A stretch of 49,940 bases of DNA. Source: Burkholderiales bacterium (GTDB taxonomy: Bacteria; Pseudomonadota; Gammaproteobacteria; Burkholderiales; SG8-41). Where the stretch lies: positions 1 through 49,940 of the forward strand of contig JALHRQ010000021.1 of NCBI GenBank assembly GCA_022841375.1. Direction: 5' to 3'. The number at the start of each line of letters is the position of its first letter. Within the stretch, counting starts at the first letter, position 1. Positions 3,855 through 49,647 of the stretch are shown one piece after another. The notes under the pieces were generated by a model. The model did not search any database. It saw only the letters and a list, made by a program, of their open reading frames with translations, and had not been told where the DNA came from. The position numbers were made by a program, and so were the translations under genes.

Positions 3855-6800
3855 GACATCGTCACCCCGGACGGATCAACCATCACCTGCGGCAGCGTTG
3901 AATTCGCTCGCGATGATTCCCAGAACAAGCGGCCGATGCCGTAACCCAGCAGACTGCCAGCGACCGTATCGGACACCCAGTGCTCCTGCTTGCCGATCCG
4001 CGCCAGATTGGTGATCGCCGCCACGCCATACAACCACGGCGCTCTGTATTCTTCGGCAAAGGGTGTCGCGACCGCCCACGCCACCGCCGTGTGCCGCGAA
4101 GGCATCGAGCCCCGTGTCGAATCGCCGCTGAAGAAATCGAAATCATTCTTCGACAATCCCGTGTTCGGCCGCGCACGGCCAAACACATACTTGAGCCCGG
4201 TCGCTGCCACTGCCGCCGTAACCCCCGCCTCCGCCGCCGAGAAACCGGTGCGCGCACGGCGCGGATCGCTGCCATCAAGCGCCAGCACCCCTGCTCCCGC
4301 CAGCCCCAGCCAAGGCAAAGCATTACCGATACGGTTGATGCCCTTCAGCCAGGTGCTATTGGCGTGATCCTTGGCGAACTGCAGGCCGCGGCTGTCGAGC
4401 AGCGAACTGGCCCCCACGGCAAGCAACCCGACGCCGGTTGCCTTGCCCCAGTCGATACGCCCCAGTTCCTTCGCCGCCAAACTGAAATCATCCATCACCC
4501 GACGGGGTTCATAAAACACCGCGCCCGGCAGCACATTCTTCAACGGCGGCGCTGCTGGTGTGCTGGCGATATCCGCCAACTGCGCCAGCGGATCAGTCTC
4601 GCGCGCCCCCTGATGCAGATAACGCACGGCCACAAAATTCTTCAGTTCCGCAGCCGGTAACTCACCGGCCAGATGCGCGCGCAAGCGCCGCAAATCAAAA
4701 AAATCGTATTCAACCAGCGGATCATTGACTTCGGCCAACTGGATGCGGATTTCACGCGCATCGGCCGGGGCCAGATTGAGTGCGGTGCGCGCGGCACGGC
4801 CCACCGCCCTGTTCAGCGGCTTCAGACGATCATGCGCCAGTTTCAGGTTCAAGCGGTGCGACCCATCGTAATCAACGACAACATTGCGGAAGCCCTGACG
4901 ATCCAGCGCCTCGATCAGTTTCAACGTCGGCCCCGCATCGGCACGCCATACCGGATCAGCCACCGGCGCCATGGCAGCGGTATACGCAGGCTTTGCTTCC
5001 GCCGGCGGCTGCCAGCGCGGCTGGTGATCGACGGCGGCTGCATTTTCATTGGCGGGTGGCGCCGCTTTGATTTCCAGCGTACGCAGGTCGCGCGTGCGCG
5101 TGATGTCATACAACCACTCCTGCCGCCACAACTTGGCGCCACCGTCACGCGTCAGCGGCTTCCAGTTGAAAAAGCCTATGGTTCCACTCGACCGAGTGAA
5201 CATCGCATCAAAAGGAATGCCGATAAACAGCCCTTTATCGAAACTGCCCTCGCCGAACTGCTCGGCCGACACATTGGTCTTGGTGGCATAGGCGCCGAAA
5301 ATCACCCCGTTACTGAAGCGGCGCGCCACCTCCAGCGTCCCGCCGAAATCTTTGGCCAGATAACGCCCGGCACTGGCGCGCACGTCCACGCCGTGCCAGC
5401 CGGTGTCCCAATACAACGTGGCATGCCCAGTCGCAACATCGTAAGAGGGCTTGAGCATCTCGAAGTTCTGCTCAAAACCACGTTGTCGCACCATGTTGGC
5501 ATCAATGCCAAAGGCCACGCGCGACGCAAACGGCCGGTACAACCATTCACCGCCAAACCCCGCGAACATTTCCTCCAGATAGCCTGCATAAGCGCTGACA
5601 TACTGGTTATCGGCAATTTTGCGGACATGGGTGACTTGCAGATTCGGCATCGTCAGATCCGAAGTCGTCAGGTACTCCCGCATAAAGGTGCGCACCCGCG
5701 GCAGATTACTGGGGGCGGTGTATTTGAAATTATCGTAGTTGTTCAGCAGGCTGTAGCGCAGCGCCCCGCTGAGCCAGGTATCCTGACGACCGAACAGCCG
5801 CAGTTTCGCGAATTGTTCGGCGTAAATCTGATACAGGATCGCGGAATCCGGGCCGCCAACGCTCTGTGAATAACCGATCCGGAAATCCGTGTTCCACGGC
5901 TCCCGCTGTCCCTCGAATAACGGTTTGGTTTCAGACGCCACGCTGCGCGCATCACGCACCAGCGTGGTTTCATGTTGCTGCGACGGCGGTAAAGGCCGGG
6001 TTTTCGAGATCACCCAGTCTTCGCGATCCACCACCTGCTCTGACATCGGTATGCCGCGCGACTGATAACGCAATACAAACCGGTCAACTTCAGCGGGCGC
6101 ATCCCGATGCAGCACGCTCGCGGCGCGATCCACCCGGTCCTGCCAATACACGGCGAGCGGCTCATCCACCGTCAATGCGATCTGGTTGCCCTCCTTCTGT
6201 AACCGGGACACCGGCCAGCCGGTCTGCACGCCGAGATCACGGGTGGTGCGGTTCCAGTCAGGCGCACCGGTAGGCCGCGATGCGACCACCGGTACCCGCG
6301 CCGGATCGCTGAGTTTGGGCATGGTCAATTTGCTGAGATCGGTATTGACGCTGATACCCAGCATCAACTGATTGCCACGCTCCACACCCAAGGTCAGGTC
6401 CAGCCAAGGGTTTTGCCGATATACCAACCCGAAGTTGAGTTTGGAAGTCTGATCAAAACGATTACCCAGCGGTTCGTTCTGATACGTGTTCGCGTCGTAT
6501 TCTGCCTTCAGCAGCAGCGGCTGCCAGGGCATCATCCATTGCAAGCTGCCAAAAGGCTTCGGGGTGCCTGAAAAATATTCACCAAAGCTGAAACTGCCGC
6601 CAGTACCGCTGATAAATTGAGTCCTTGATGCACCCGCCATATAACCCCAAGCCAGTCCCAGACTGACATCGAAATTATTGAAGCGTTTGCTAGCCACAAC
6701 GTATTCTGAAGAAAACAATCCCGTGCCTGCAAAATCCAAAAAACCGATTGATATTTCCGGTGTAAAAGTGGACTCTGACCACAATCCCAGTTTGAGGTCA

Positions 6801-44541: not shown

Positions 44542-45270
44542 TCACCCTGATTCAGGCGAAGGCGGATGCCCCATGAAAGTCAGGCGTAGCACCTCGAGCA
44601 GATTATGGCCCTGCTTGTGCATGGTATCGAGGTAAGAGCGGATGGTGCAGAAATCCTGCGCACCCTTAAGCGTGCGAAAACAGCCGGAGATTTTCTGCTT
44701 CACCTTGGGCATGCGGATGGCGCGCTCGCCCAGGTTGTTGGTAAACAGCACGCGCAGATCCGTCACGAAACGCAGCACCTCGGGGGCATGCTCGCGCATA
44801 CGGCTGATGAGATTGAACGCCACGGTTTGTTTAACCCGGCCGCGGCGCTTGGCCTGCCGCGTGGCCCGCGGATTACGGGCTTGAGCTTGGGCCAGAATCG
44901 CCTCGTAGTGCGTAAAAATCCGCCGTATCCGCCGTTCGCTCAACGCTGCTTGATCGCGCCGTCGCGCCGCCTCGCTGTGGTCACGGGCGCAGATCAAAAG
45001 GTCGATCATGCGTTTGGGCCATCGCTGGCCGGTGGTTTCGCGCAGAAACATCAATTCGCGCAGTAAGTGCGCATTGCACAAGGCATGCTCGCAATCGAGT
45101 TGCCAATACGGCTTCCAGCAGTCATGCATCAGCACCGCTATCCGTTTGGGCAGGATGCCGTGTTCTTGGATGGCGAGCATGCAGCGCTTGTCGTGCATCC
45201 CATACCAGGTGCAGATGTCGCTCGCCACCGTATGCAGCCAATGCAGGCGGGAGGCCACGCGACTTGGCAT
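44542..45270 (-). pseudogene. IS66-type transposase (TnpC), C-terminal half
   Basis: The remaining 242 residues cover the second half of an IS66 transposase: SRLHWLHTVASDICTWYGMH, VLMHDCWKPYWQLDCEHALC, NAHLLREL, NNLGERAIRMPKVKQKISGC and FRTLKGAQDFCTIRSYLDTM. The first catalytic Asp region and the N-terminal half are absent. The break point coincides with the start of the integrase fragment. Confidence 0.85.
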
Positions 45271-45568: not shown

Positions 45569-46615
45569 CTAGCTTTGGCGAATTTGCCTGCTAACCGCCC
45601 GCGTCCCGCCACCCCATGTCGGCACATACGCTGCCTTTACACCTACACCGCCGGCAACCGCGATGAGCACATCCGAGGGCCGCTCTGCAACGCGCAATTC
45701 TGCAAGCGCATCACTACTGCCCTCAGAAGCCGACAATGCCATCAGGTGTTCCCGCACTGCCGGCGACAGACGCTCAACTGGCATCACAGCACGCTCGAAA
45801 ATCCCTCGTTGCACTTCCGCTTTGCCCCAACCGCCTTGGACAAACACCTGCGCCAGCTCGGGCGGCAAGATGATTAACGGCTCACCACCACCAAGAAGCC
45901 CTTTGCTCCCGATACTACCGGCAATCAGCATCGACTCTGCGAACGTTTGAATCAACTCCTGAGGCCGATTGCTGCATGAATCTACCACCTCCACGATCCC
46001 AGACGCACCAACCACCGTCACAACGCTCGCGTCCGGCACGAAGCCGCGGTCCACGTGCAAACCTGGCCATGGACTGTCTGCTTCGTTTTCGGCAAAACAG
46101 AACGTGTATTTCGCGGGCTGGCCAATTGTTGCCATGTCGAATTCGCCGGGTCTTGCACCACCAACGTTGCGCAACAACAGGCTGACCGCCCTTCCTATCG
46201 TGGCATTTGCGCAGTTTCCCGGTCCGAGAGCATTGCCTGCCGCATTCATTCCGATTTTGGCCACAATCGGTCCATTCACGATAACGAGCGGAGCAACCGA
46301 GCCAGTCGTGGTTGCAATTCCCATGAGATTGAATTCGTCGGCCGTTAATGCCTCGACTATCGCGCCCAACACTGGCAGATACTCCGGCCGGCAGCCCGCC
46401 ATAACTGCGTTTATGGCGATGTCCCGCCAAGTTGCCTCGCCAAATGATGGCGGTAGTTCAGCAACAAGCTCATTGGCCTCAAAGCTATGTAATTTCAGCA
46501 TCCGCTCGACGCGCGCCAGTGTCGGCGGCACGACCGGTAGCCCGTCGGTCAACCCCTCTGCCGCCAGTTCTTCCTGCGCGGTTTCCCAGTGCTCAGTCCC
46601 GTTCCACAAATTCAT
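45569..46615 (-). CDS. UGSC-associated protein of the TDGLPVVP family, copy 1
   Basis: The predicted protein has 348 residues. It carries GLTDGLPVVPPTLARVERML near the start, NAVMAGCRPEYLPVLGAIVE, GNALGPGNCANATIGRAVSL, NEADSPWPGLHVDRGF and a C-terminal DVLIAVAGGVGVKAAYVP. The same landmarks in the same order occur in the protein encoded at 48631-49647, so the two are paralogues. There is no signal peptide and no membrane segment. I do not know the function; the conserved Gly-Cys (MAGC) and acidic/aromatic motifs suggest an enzyme. Its ATG overlaps, as ATGA, the stop of a fragment of a third paralogue. Confidence 0.75.
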   Translation of the reverse strand: MNLWNGTEHWETAQEELAAEGLTDGLPVVPPTLARVERMLKLHSFEANELVAELPPSFGEATWRDIAINAVMAGCRPEYLPVLGAIVEALTADEFNLMGIATTTGSVAPLVIVNGPIVAKIGMNAAGNALGPGNCANATIGRAVSLLLRNVGGARPGEFDMATIGQPAKYTFCFAENEADSPWPGLHVDRGFVPDASVVTVVGASGIVEVVDSCSNRPQELIQTFAESMLIAGSIGSKGLLGGGEPLIILPPELAQVFVQGGWGKAEVQRGIFERAVMPVERLSPAVREHLMALSASEGSSDALAELRVAERPSDVLIAVAGGVGVKAAYVPTWGGGTRAVSRQIRQS

Positions 46616-46767
46616 TTCGCGTTCTCACCTTGCAATGAATATGCCACCACAACCTTGCGGGTCTGCGGCATTCCAGCAGCGATATAAACGTCTTGCAGGA
46701 CTAGTCCGCCTGCCACGACAATTCTGATCTCATCCGGGCTGCACTTACGCCATATGGGTTCCTGCAT
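46612..46767 (-). pseudogene. C-terminal fragment of a third TDGLPVVP-family paralogue
   Basis: The fragment has 51 codons: MQEPIWRKCSPDEIRIVVAG, then LQDVYIAAGMPQTRKVVV. It matches the last 40 residues of the protein at 48631-49647 (ARSPDEIYIAVAGG, NVYIGAGMPQTRLV). The body of the gene is missing. It indicates that two paralogues once stood in tandem here and that a deletion removed most of one. It could also be a functional small protein, which I think less likely. Confidence 0.65.
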
Positions 46768-46883: not shown

Positions 46884-47864
46884 TTAGGCGAATGCGGCCA
46901 CCGGTGCCTCGTTTGTCAACCTACCATGATCGATATCGCCTCCATCAATGGCCCTGAGAATCAGGTCGGCGTCGAGGTGAGGCGCGAACAAAGACACGAA
47001 GGTCAGCGCCTGCCGACTAAGATAAGCGTGACGCCGCATCACCAGATTGAGAATGCTCGGCCGGAACAGGTGCCCAGCGTCTATCCCAACGAGTCCACGG
47101 TCGCGTGCCGGATCGAACGCAATACTGGCGAGTACCGCGATGCCCATGCCAATCTCGACATAAGTCTTGCTGATATCAGCGTCGATTGCGCTGCAGACGA
47201 TGCGAGGCTTGAGACCCGCGCGCGCAAACGCCTCATCCACAATCCGACGTCCACTGTAAGGCGCAGAATAGGCGACAATCGGGAAAGCGACGAGCTTTTT
47301 TAGTGTGAGATTAGTTTCGCGCGCGAGCGGATGCCCGCGCGGGACAATTATGCAACGCGTGAGGCGGTAGGCGGGAAGTGTAACGATTTCGCTCGTGGCC
47401 TTTTCGCCAATCGTGGTGATGCCGATGTTGGCCTCGCCACCAGCCACAAGTTCACAGCAGCTTACCGGATCGCCTTGCCGTAGCGTCAAAATCACGCCCG
47501 GAAAGCGCGTTGCAAACGTCTTCATCAAGAGGGGCAGCGCGTAGCGCGCGTGCAGATGGGTTGTTGCAATCTTGAGTTCACCGCTATCGTCAGAGGAGTC
47601 GGCGCGCCCGACCTCAGTCAAGTTTTTCGTGTCGCGCATGATGCGCAGGCCGATCCGCAAGATCTCCTCGCCTTTCGGCGTCAGTGCGGCGACTTTGTTG
47701 CGGGTACGCACAAATACGCGTACGCCTAGCGCGCGTTCCAAGTCCTGTACCTGACGGCTCAACGTCGGCTGGGAGCGGTTGAGCGCAACTGCAGCCGCTG
47801 AGATATTGAAGTCGTTGCGCACGACTGCGCAGATCGCTTCGATCTGAGCGATGTTTAGCGACAT
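46884..47864 (-). CDS. LysR-type regulator, CysB-like
   Basis: The predicted protein has 326 residues. The winged HTH lies at about 1-65 (AAVALNRSQPTLSRQVQDLE, VFVRTRNKVAALTPKGEEIL), close to the CysB/Cbl branch of LysR regulators. The effector domain lies at about 90-300. CysB-type proteins control sulfur and thiol metabolism genes, and that link is inference for this protein. It is divergent from the selenoprotein gene, with 105 bp between the starts, the usual arrangement for a LysR regulator and its target. Confidence 0.85.
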   Translation of the reverse strand: MSLNIAQIEAICAVVRNDFNISAAAVALNRSQPTLSRQVQDLERALGVRVFVRTRNKVAALTPKGEEILRIGLRIMRDTKNLTEVGRADSSDDSGELKIATTHLHARYALPLLMKTFATRFPGVILTLRQGDPVSCCELVAGGEANIGITTIGEKATSEIVTLPAYRLTRCIIVPRGHPLARETNLTLKKLVAFPIVAYSAPYSGRRIVDEAFARAGLKPRIVCSAIDADISKTYVEIGMGIAVLASIAFDPARDRGLVGIDAGHLFRPSILNLVMRRHAYLSRQALTFVSLFAPHLDADLILRAIDGGDIDHGRLTNEAPVAAFA

Positions 47865-47912: not shown

Positions 47913-47941
47913 TTGACTAAATGCCGAACGCTTTCTAGGAT
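47913..47941 (+). promoter_or_regulatory. Sigma-70-type promoter of the UGSC gene
   Basis: TTGACT (47913-47918) and TAGGAT (47936-47941) are spaced by exactly 17 nt. The -35 matches consensus at five of six positions and the -10 at four of six. The ATG at 47970 lies 28 nt after the -10. The promoter excludes the upstream in-frame start codon near 47898. Confidence 0.6.
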
Positions 47942-47969
47942 GAAATACTTTCTTCAAAAAGGAACACGC

Positions 47970-48617
47970 ATGTCTATCCTCGATTTGACGATGGTTTCGC
48001 CGCTAGCGGTTTATCTCGACGAAATTTCTAGCGCGAGCAGGCTAGCACCTCGGCCCACCACCCTTGACGGCAAGGTGCTTGGCCTGTTGCCGAACTGGCG
48101 GCCCTCTGCCATTCATATTCTGAAGTCGCTCAGCGAATTGCTGCAGGAGCGCTACAAATTGAAGGCCATCGAGATGGCGCAGCCGATGCGCGAACTGCCG
48201 TTGCGCACCGGCAAATTGCTCGATCCCATGAAGGAGCAACTCGACTCGATGGTAGGACGCGTCGACGTCGTTCTTGTTGCCAGCGGCGATTGAGGGTCGT
48301 GCACGACGTGGTGTAGCCACGTCACACCGGCCCTTGAGCTGCGCGGCATCCCTGCGGTGATGGTCGTCACTGACACGTTTTCGTTATTCGCGCGCCGCAT
48401 GTCATCGACCCAAAATTTTCCGTACGTCGTCATCGCTGAGACGCCGAACCCGATTCGCCAGCTCGAAAAAGACGCGCTGCGAGTGCGCGCCGACGCGATG
48501 ATCCAGACGGTAATCGACGGCCTCACGCTGCCGCCCATGGAAATCGAAAAACGCACCGCGCACCTTGTCAAACAGATTAATCCAGCGGGCGTCGCACGCT
48601 CCTCGGTACCGGTATAA
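47970..48617 (+). CDS. UGSC-family selenoprotein (in-frame TGA read as selenocysteine)
   Basis: The reading frame runs from the ATG at 47970 (AAAAGGA 6 nt upstream) to the TAA at 48615-48617, with one in-frame TGA at 48291-48293 (residue 108 of 215). The residues around it are VVLVASGD-[TGA]-GSCTTWCSH, the hallmark of the UGSC (seleno)protein family. The motif U-G-S-C places selenocysteine two residues before a Cys, like a redox CxxC. Downstream the frame stays protein-like (LELRGIPAVMVVTDTFSLFA, FPYVVIAETPNPIRQLEKDA) for 108 codons. A hairpin starts 11 nt after the TGA. The enzyme activity of the family is not known to me. The gene would be misannotated as two short frames by ordinary gene finders. 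A plain nonsense mutation is the alternative, but position and hairpin argue against it. Confidence 0.85.
48305..48323 (+). promoter_or_regulatory. Bacterial SECIS-like hairpin
   Basis: GACGTGG, loop TGTAG, CCACGTC: a perfect 7-bp stem with a 5-nt apical loop that has a G at its second position. It starts 11 nt after the in-frame TGA, the spacing described for the E. coli fdhF SECIS. It lies within the coding sequence, as bacterial SECIS elements do, and would recruit SelB with selenocysteyl-tRNA. Confidence 0.75.
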
Positions 48618-48630
48618 AGGAGCCACAGTG

Positions 48631-49647
48631 ATGCAAGCCGAAGTCAAACTAAAAGGCGAGTCGATCGCCGAGCTTCTCATGCGCGGCTACGATTACGCGT
48701 ACGAGCAGGGCTGGACCGACGGTCTGCCGGTCATTCCGGCCACGCCCGAGGCCGTAAGACAATTTGTCGCCGCCTCCGGCCGCAAGGCCGATGATCTCGT
48801 CGCTGTACTGCCTCCGCGAAAGGGCCAGGCAACGATCGAGGCCCTCGCGGTCAATGCGATCATGGCGGGCTGCAAGCCCGAATACATGCCTGTAATAATC
48901 GCCGCGATCGAGGGCATCAGCGATCCGACCTATCCACTGGAGCTCATGCAGGTCACCACCAACCCGATGACGCCGTTCTTTCTCGTCAATGGTCCGGTGC
49001 GTGACGAACTTGAAATCAACTACGGCACCGGCTGTCTCGGCCCCGGCTGGCGCGCAAATTCCACGATCGGACGCGCAGTACGGCTCGCACTAATTAACGT
49101 CGGTGGAGCACTGCCAGGCGTGTATTCGAAAACGAGTTTCGGTTCTCCACTGCGTTATTCATACATCTGTGCCGAGAACGAAGCGGCAAACCCGTGGACG
49201 CCGTTTCACGTCGATCGCGGCTTTAAGCGAGAGGAAAGTACGGTCACCGCATTCAAGGCGTCGAATTTCTGCAACATCTCAGGTGGTGAAGGCGTCGGCC
49301 CCGAGGAAATCCTGCGCCAGATCGCCACCAACATGCCGCCGATGTACGGCGGCGGCGACGGCGTGCTGCTGCTGCTGGGCGTGAATCACGCTCAATCGTT
49401 GCACGAAGCCGGGTTTAGTAAGCATGACATCCAGAAGCGGCTTTGGGAACTCGCAAGACTGCCTATTTCACATTTCGCCGAAGCGTTTTCGTCGACGGAA
49501 CGCCAGGCCGGACGAGGTGATGCCGAAACCGTGTGGCGTGCGCGTAGCCCCGACGAAATTTACATCGCGGTCGCCGGCGGTCCCGGCCCGCAGAATGTTT
49601 ATATAGGCGCCGGTATGCCACAAACGCGATTGGTCAAGCGGGAATAG
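48631..49647 (+). CDS. UGSC-associated protein of the TDGLPVVP family, copy 2
   Basis: The predicted protein has 338 residues from the ATG at 48631, with AAAGGAG about 8 nt upstream; it follows the selenoprotein stop by 13 bp, so the two are one operon. Landmarks are QGWTDGLPVIPATPEAVRQF, NAIMAGCKPEYMPVIIAAIE, YGTGCLGPGWRANSTIGRAV, CAENEAANPWTPFHVDRGF and SPDEIYIAVAGG at the end. It is paralogous to the product of 45569-46615. The function is unknown. Coupling to the selenoprotein suggests that the two act as subunits or successive enzymes. Confidence 0.8.
   Translation: MQAEVKLKGESIAELLMRGYDYAYEQGWTDGLPVIPATPEAVRQFVAASGRKADDLVAVLPPRKGQATIEALAVNAIMAGCKPEYMPVIIAAIEGISDPTYPLELMQVTTNPMTPFFLVNGPVRDELEINYGTGCLGPGWRANSTIGRAVRLALINVGGALPGVYSKTSFGSPLRYSYICAENEAANPWTPFHVDRGFKREESTVTAFKASNFCNISGGEGVGPEEILRQIATNMPPMYGGGDGVLLLLGVNHAQSLHEAGFSKHDIQKRLWELARLPISHFAEAFSSTERQAGRGDAETVWRARSPDEIYIAVAGGPGPQNVYIGAGMPQTRLVKRE

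Follow-up and report, generated by a model that had tools for sequence, protein, structure and literature searches.

UGSC is an already known selenoprotein family. It was the fifth most numerous one in the 2008 ocean survey (255 of 3,506; PMC2398784 Table 2) and the most used selenoprotein family in the non-marine samples of that survey, whose passages on UGSC also report fusions to a domain named 'Unknown_1' (PMC2398784). A 2026 review lists UGSC among the selenoproteins whose functions 'remain largely uncharacterized' (PMC13188914). The passages of this review on amino acid reductases state that GrdB binds glycine and releases ammonia and that PrdB is part of D-proline reductase (PMC13188914). 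A link between UGSC and the selenocysteine (Sec) domain of GrdB and PrdB was not found in passages of open-access papers that contain both names; the size of the UGSC expansion was likewise not found described in open-access passages covering UGSC. The gene presented here resembles the known UGSC selenoproteins (PF24696, NF041046; PMC2398784 as far as its UGSC passages go) in family, in the UGSC motif, in the TGA with a SECIS element and in the second conserved domain. Unlike them, it is a divergent member below the NCBIfam cut-off and resides in a genome with 11 copies.

The window, i.e. the whole analysed stretch of 49,940 bases, contains the gene together with the features of Table 1. The frame opens with an ATG preceded by AGGA at 47960-47963 and ends with the TAA at 48615-48617, the TGA being its sole internal stop. 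The pattern TGA-GGN-Ser-TGY has this single occurrence on both strands of the window. Read with the standard code, the sequence downstream of the TGA presents a short frame of 86 residues from GTG 48357. The original prediction of a UGSC protein with a TGA in the context SGD-TGA-GSC was borne out: the read-through product of 215 residues matched the Pfam family UGSC (PF24696) over residues 20-186 with 120.7 bits, for a cut-off of 25, and this was its only Pfam match. A continuation of 108 codons after the TGA had been claimed; the continuation exists, but comprises 107 sense codons, and 108 are reached only with the stop. The gene had also been called hidden, which holds only in part. Against the NCBIfam equivalog model NF041046, 'UGSC family (seleno)protein', the product obtained 95.5 bits and stayed below the cut-off of 125, thus automatic naming could miss the gene, whereas the Pfam model readily finds the read-through product.

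Table 1. Positions of the UGSC gene, its predicted decoding elements and neighbouring features in the window
Feature	Positions	Strand	Remarks
Second, lone partner copy	45569..46615	-	36-37% identity; adjacent UGSC not found
Remnant of a third partner gene	46651..46761	-	37 residues near the C-terminus, 67.6% identical
Divergent LysR-type regulator, CysB kind	46884..47864	-	best model PRK12684, 325.8 bits, under the cut-off of 402
Sigma-70-like promoter TTGACT-17-TAGGAT	47913..47941	+	9 of 12 matches; weak evidence
UGSC gene, predicted selenoprotein with Sec108	47970..48617	+	215 residues with the TGA read through; PF24696, orthologues
In-frame TGA, predicted to be decoded as selenocysteine	48291..48293	+	kept in the orthologues L138, L139, L311
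Predicted bacterial SECIS hairpin	48305..48323	+	stem of 8 pairs, the outermost 7 perfect and the apical one U-G; GUA loop with its apical G at 48313
Partner gene	48631..49647	+	GTG 48628 or ATG 48631; probably one operon with UGSC; family A2

An alignment of the family (A1) was built from 48 UGSC proteins out of a set of 62 made non-redundant at 75 % identity; the other 14 were omitted for size. The window protein is 20-32 % identical to the other 47, and its SGD-U-GSC motif falls into the same U/C-G-S-C column as the motifs of these relatives. It departs from near-invariant positions such as D118, G149 and H160, where it has V, N and N. The invariance of the motif cysteine in A1 is partly a product of selection, because the search pattern for the 96 UGSC frames required the Sec position, where TGA, TGT or TGC was allowed, to be followed by Gly, Ser and Cys. 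The pattern was fitted by 98 frames; all 96 retained ones had TGA, but the profile used as filter came from TGA frames. Without the motif pattern, 157 of 161 UGSC domains carried the TGA. Sixteen of these 157 had an extra stop upstream, outside the gene or at its edge, and the domain of L080 an additional stop near its end. The four TGA-free domains were two cut pieces (L155 and L173), L184 and L196. The second cysteine of the motif is absent in some relatives: L124 reads U-G-T-S, and natural Sec-free relatives with cysteine, L305, L306 and L308, read C-G-T-S. Neither Sec nor Cys occupies the motif position in L309 and L310. The middle residue varies as well, with U-G-G-C in L080 and L140, U-G-A-C in L150 and U-G-N-C in L158. 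The window gene is a divergent new member of the known selenoprotein family UGSC.

Bacterial SECIS elements are described by a loop of 3-9 nt, a stem of 4-16 bp, a G in the first two loop positions, a spacing of 16-37 nt from UGA to loop and a minimum free energy of at most -7.5 kcal/mol, as given in the SECIS passages of the 2026 review (PMC13188914). The hairpin GACGUGGU-GUA-GCCACGUC begins 11 nt past the TGA and has a loop of 3 nt, a stem of 8 pairs, the G in loop position 1, a spacing of 19 nt and a minimum free energy of -11.2 kcal/mol; counted without the apical U-G pair, these become a loop of 5, a stem of 7, G in position 2 and a spacing of 18 nt. None of 200 dinucleotide shuffles was as stable. 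Since the stretch is coding, synonymous recodings served as a further control: the 42 nt after the TGA fold with -23.6 kcal/mol, the recodings with -11.8 on average, and 0 of 300 were as stable. The perfect 7-bp hairpin with a G in the apical loop, 11 nt downstream, is thus exactly as originally described.

Its likeness to bacterial SECIS elements, asserted at the outset, is supported by the published rules, all of which agree, and by compensatory changes in other family members. A comparison of 65 UGSC genes (63 distinct) showed the eight-pair helix, equally far from the TGA in each, to be paired in 94.4 % of 504 cells. Both sides had changed in 43 cells, a number reached by none of 500 shuffles (mean 11.9), and such changes concerned six of the eight pairs, which 2 of 500 shuffles reached. 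Sliding the partner strand by 1-3 columns reduced the pairing to 16-51 % (maximum 51.2 %). The second pair is A-U in the window gene and its two orthologues, U-A in most of the family. The folding of individual genes was mixed, with a mean z of -1.85, 62 of 64 below zero and 47 of 64 below -1. The fusion in L066, one of the 11 UGSC genes of the own genome, folded more weakly than its recodings (z +1.8). A scan with Rfam gave no SECIS match here and one chance hit.

The genome of origin (G000, 4.08 Mb, 99 % complete) has the complete Sec machinery, and the original expectation of selA, selB, selC and selD in the same genome held for all four genes. SelA (577 bits) is encoded beside selB (G000:C3, 421 bits) and a tRNA-Sec of 75.9 bits with the anticodon TCA; selD (419 bits) itself has one in-frame TGA. 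At the locus L057 a thioredoxin-reductase-like gene (4431-5339, minus strand; TIGR01292 with 224 bits, cut-off 343) lies directly after selB and before tRNA-Sec, a candidate electron donor of selenoproteins. UGSC matches in G000 numbered 13 at E <= 1, and 11 of them were above the Pfam cut-off. All 11 have one TGA as sole stop; the two matches below the cut-off differ.

Among the own genome and 60 relatives, 40 of 61 contained UGSC. Four related genomes together had 140 UGSC matches, 128 with a single TGA as the only stop; of the other 12, three had a further TAG or TAA and nine were free of stops, several of them fragments. The highest number among the genomes searched here was observed in G021 (5.7 Mb, 98 % complete) with 58 matches; 51 have a single TGA as the only stop, and a few of these 51 are partial. 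This bin consists of about 330 contigs, so strain mixing may contribute to its count. Many of its open frames have 540-640 residues, a length that suggests fusion with the partner domain. In its passages on whole bacterial selenoproteomes, the 2026 review gives 57 and 63 genes for the largest ones (PMC13188914), a size approached by the 51 single-TGA UGSC genes of this one bin.

Three genomes contain orthologues of the window gene, 87 % (L138), 64 % (L139) and 60 % (L311) identical, and all keep the TGA. L138 and L139 were found by the search with the partner; they have the TGA at the same codon and, like the window gene, lie upstream of a partner gene. L311 belongs to a different genus within the same taxonomic family; its stop is in the same place and is a TGA according to the overlapping locus L100. 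Between the window gene and L138, the part before the TGA gave a dN of 0.077 and a dS of 1.04, the part after it 0.083 and 0.76. For L139, the dN/dS values were 0.32/1.05 before and 0.23/1.45 after. With dN much smaller than dS in both parts, the downstream half is under much the same constraint at the protein level as the upstream half. In the alignment A5, the L139 reference begins 3 bases late and was gapped by MAFFT. The window and L138 agree in all 35 nt that follow the TGA, although roughly half of the gene's synonymous sites differ between them; this would be expected of an RNA element overlapping the code.

The TGA could also be a true stop or a decay mutation in a broken gene, with the frame from GTG 48357 separate or meaningless. 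The standard code does yield a truncated and a short frame, and a search of 20 other genomes of the same genus gave no close orthologue (best identity 39 %), yet we regard this reading as highly improbable. A close homologue ending at the TGA had been named as a possible refutation; the three orthologues found all continue through it, with dN well below dS behind the TGA and a frame otherwise intact. The covarying SECIS helix, the complete Sec machinery and ten further single-TGA UGSC genes in the same genome stand against a stop as well. Family, machinery, compensated hairpin, TGA in the orthologues and purifying selection behind it are agreeing lines that support a UGSC selenoprotein and, as a prediction from comparative evidence, the insertion of Sec at UGA 48291.

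The partner gene starts 13 bases after the UGSC stop. It was on the same strand and adjoining or fused in 91 of 96 UGSC genes; the five exceptions include some at the ends of contigs. Among loci about 3.4 kb long, 39 of 40 with UGSC had the partner against 0 of 50 controls, counted with a profile built from UGSC-linked loci. With the partner as query in named genomes, 80 loci were obtained, and UGSC was within the fetched stretch in 71 of them. The near-constant pairing and the fusions support the prediction that UGSC and the protein of the next gene act as one complex. The partner probably is the 'Unknown_1' domain of the 2008 literature.

No Pfam or NCBIfam model matched the two partner copies of the window at E <= 10. 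The family A2 comprises 31 partner proteins from a set of 32 made non-redundant at 65 %; against Pfam these 31 gave three unrelated weak matches only, and in the absence of a relevant family among them no pyruvoyl-type subunit was seen. Compared with the N-terminal part of GrdB-like proteins, the partner reached 0.1 % and had no relation to it, so it did not come out as a B-type subunit. The best Foldseek match of the partner was a class I fumarase subunit, but a poor one (TM 0.28). What is left of a third partner gene, a decayed duplicate, lies between the genes of the LysR-type regulator and the lone partner copy. Adjoining the lone copy is a frame of 242 residues (44542-45270, minus strand), which we take to be a fragment of an IS66-kind transposase.

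Similarity of UGSC to amino acid reductases emerged from the NCBIfam models. At E <= 5, 29 of the 48 UGSC proteins matched GrdB (TIGR01917, best 3.1e-6), 17 GrdF, 16 TIGR01918, 14 GrdH and 11 PrdB (best 0.0014); the window protein alone obtained an E of 0.028 for PrdB (TIGR04483) and 0.12 for GrdB (TIGR01917). The Pfam model GRDB (PF07355) had no match in G000 at E 1e-3, the window protein included. In 20 of 26 partner-carrying genomes a PF07355 match was above the cut-off, GrdB-like ones included. We labelled full-length matches to PF07355 as 'GrdB-like' and C-terminal matches as 'PrdB-like'. Of 29 full-length matches eight were obtained as loci, two near contig edges could not be resolved, and six GrdB-like sequences formed the set A3. 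The set A4 held 20 of 22 PrdB-like loci; one at an edge and one near-duplicate were omitted. Among the 30 GrdB-like and PrdB-like loci, 27 were readable, and all 27 had a TGA at or just past the end of the Pfam match. In these loci the GRDB model ends at the Sec position, so it seems to derive from proteins truncated at the TGA. The GrdB-like L227 reads U-G-T-S, L228 U-G-T-G. The PrdB-like loci L230-L254 have a TGA and mostly U-P-x-C motifs and are common in partner-carrying genomes; they occur in both bins with close UGSC orthologues, and G000 is without any.

A comparison of profiles with hhalign placed Sec on Sec in both cases, with 95.7 % (E 9.7e-9) for UGSC against the six GrdB-like Sec domains, over 93 aligned columns with 19 % identity and with six GrdB-like sequences only, and 64 % (E 6.5e-5) against 20 PrdB-like proteins, a value not decisive alone. 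The GrdB-like and PrdB-like sets matched each other with 99.8 %. After masking of six columns around Sec on both sides, GrdB-like still gave 89.6 % (E 1.9e-6) and PrdB-like 67 %. Controls were low: 1.7 and 0.3 % for reversed profiles, at most 0.3 % for six column shuffles, 0.3 % for the partner family, 3.1 % for 23 Asp/Glu racemases and 2.6 % for 21 thioredoxins. The masked alignments and the low controls thus mark UGSC, as judged from profile comparisons, as a remote relative of the C-terminal Sec domain that GrdB and PrdB contribute to glycine-type and D-proline reductases. Like these proteins (PF07355, TIGR01917, TIGR04483), UGSC presents a strand, Sec and a helix, with Sec on Sec. Unlike GrdB, it has no long N-terminal part and no PF07355 match, and the partner is unrelated to that part. 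No known subunit of glycine or proline reductase turned up in the scanned part of the neighbourhood.

An AlphaFold2 model of the window protein, based on 48 sequences (pLDDT 88.6, pTM 0.83), has five main strands alternating with helices and Sec108 between the strand 100-106 and the helix 109-124. Foldseek returned generic alpha/beta proteins, led by FtsZ and flavin reductases, with query-normalised TM values of 0.20-0.44 among the 50 of 1,641 matches listed. A sequence search of solved structures with the UGSC and partner families yielded nothing convincing. The 'likely Trx-like fold' given for UGSC in the passages of the 2008 survey (PMC2398784) is not supported by these data.

The in-frame UGA 48291 would be decoded when the ribosome arrives and the hairpin holds SelB with Sec-tRNA(Sec); Sec would be inserted at residue 108, and translation would proceed to the TAA at 48617, giving a selenoprotein of 215 residues. 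UGSC is predicted to fold into one alpha/beta domain, in which Sec follows a strand and opens a helix. The partner may hold an organic-acid substrate, which the selenol would attack so that a bond is cleaved reductively or by elimination. The numerous UGSC copies, which often lie next to TctC-type receptors, may serve different imported carboxylates. Sec would then act as the nucleophile in a family of reductases or lyases whose substrates are organic acids taken up by the cell. The overall explanation, from Sec insertion through the GrdB-type domain and the partner complex to organic-acid chemistry, appears moderately probable to us.

As an alternative to the selenol nucleophile, UGSC could be a thioredoxin- or peroxidase-like redox selenoprotein; a selenenyl-sulfide would then join Sec to the Cys of UxxC, with the partner as redox client. 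The UxxC at the start of a helix does resemble thioredoxin-like selenoproteins, and the literature, in its passages on UGSC, places the family with Trx-like families (PMC2398784). We consider this unlikely, since UGSC differs from those selenoproteins in lacking profile similarity (2.6 %) and in its predicted fold of five strands alternating with helices, with no thioredoxin among the 50 of 1,641 Foldseek matches listed. The second Cys is also missing in some relatives, as in the U-G-T-S of L124, the C-G-T-S of the three Cys forms and the motifs of the GrdB-like L227 and L228, which favours a selenol nucleophile over thioredoxin-like exchange. The same preference follows from the Sec subunits of the detected relatives, which act on bound substrate according to the passages on them in the review (PMC13188914). 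A GrdB-like Sec domain could instead catalyse a non-reductive reaction on carboxylates, i.e. racemisation, isomerisation or elimination. An alpha/beta fold whose nucleophile sits where a helix begins would suit such chemistry, as would the neighbouring genes of organic-acid and CoA metabolism (MmgE/PrpD, CoA transferase, acyl-CoA genes) and the lyase nature of the partner's best, if poor, fold match, a class I fumarase subunit. This alternative is rather doubtful in view of the missing profile relation to Asp/Glu racemases (3.1 %), and the detected relatives GrdB and PrdB are reductase subunits.

The window neighbours include an acyl-CoA dehydrogenase and an acyl-CoA synthetase, and genes for MmgE/PrpD, CoA transferase and enoyl-CoA hydratase lie near other UGSC copies. 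A TctC receptor was present in 17 of 40 loci with UGSC and in 3 of 50 controls, a count that is not independent evidence because many of the 40 loci are orthologous. The profile used for it was built from UGSC-linked loci. This context points to organic acids. The divergent LysR-type regulator has a counterpart of 76 % identity in the same place at L138; a CysB-type regulator could hint at organosulfur substrates, which is a guess. Of the sigma-70-like promoter ascribed to the gene, a match remained of which the part TTGACTAAAT is kept in L138; it is weak and ordinary, two such sites occurring in 901 bases against a shuffle mean of 0.5.

A tie to glycine and proline reductase would give UGSC a definite, testable chemistry instead of a vague redox label, and the partner gene names the protein to co-express with it. 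More tentatively, UGSC and partner may constitute a new large class of Sec enzymes, GrdB-type domains outside Stickland fermentation that work with a new substrate-holding protein. They would occur in dozens of copies in lineages other than the classic anaerobes that ferment amino acids, and every copy would cleave an imported carboxylate of its own. If this new class proved real, selenium in these bacteria would be a catabolic tool for dissolved organic acids and not mainly an antioxidant device.
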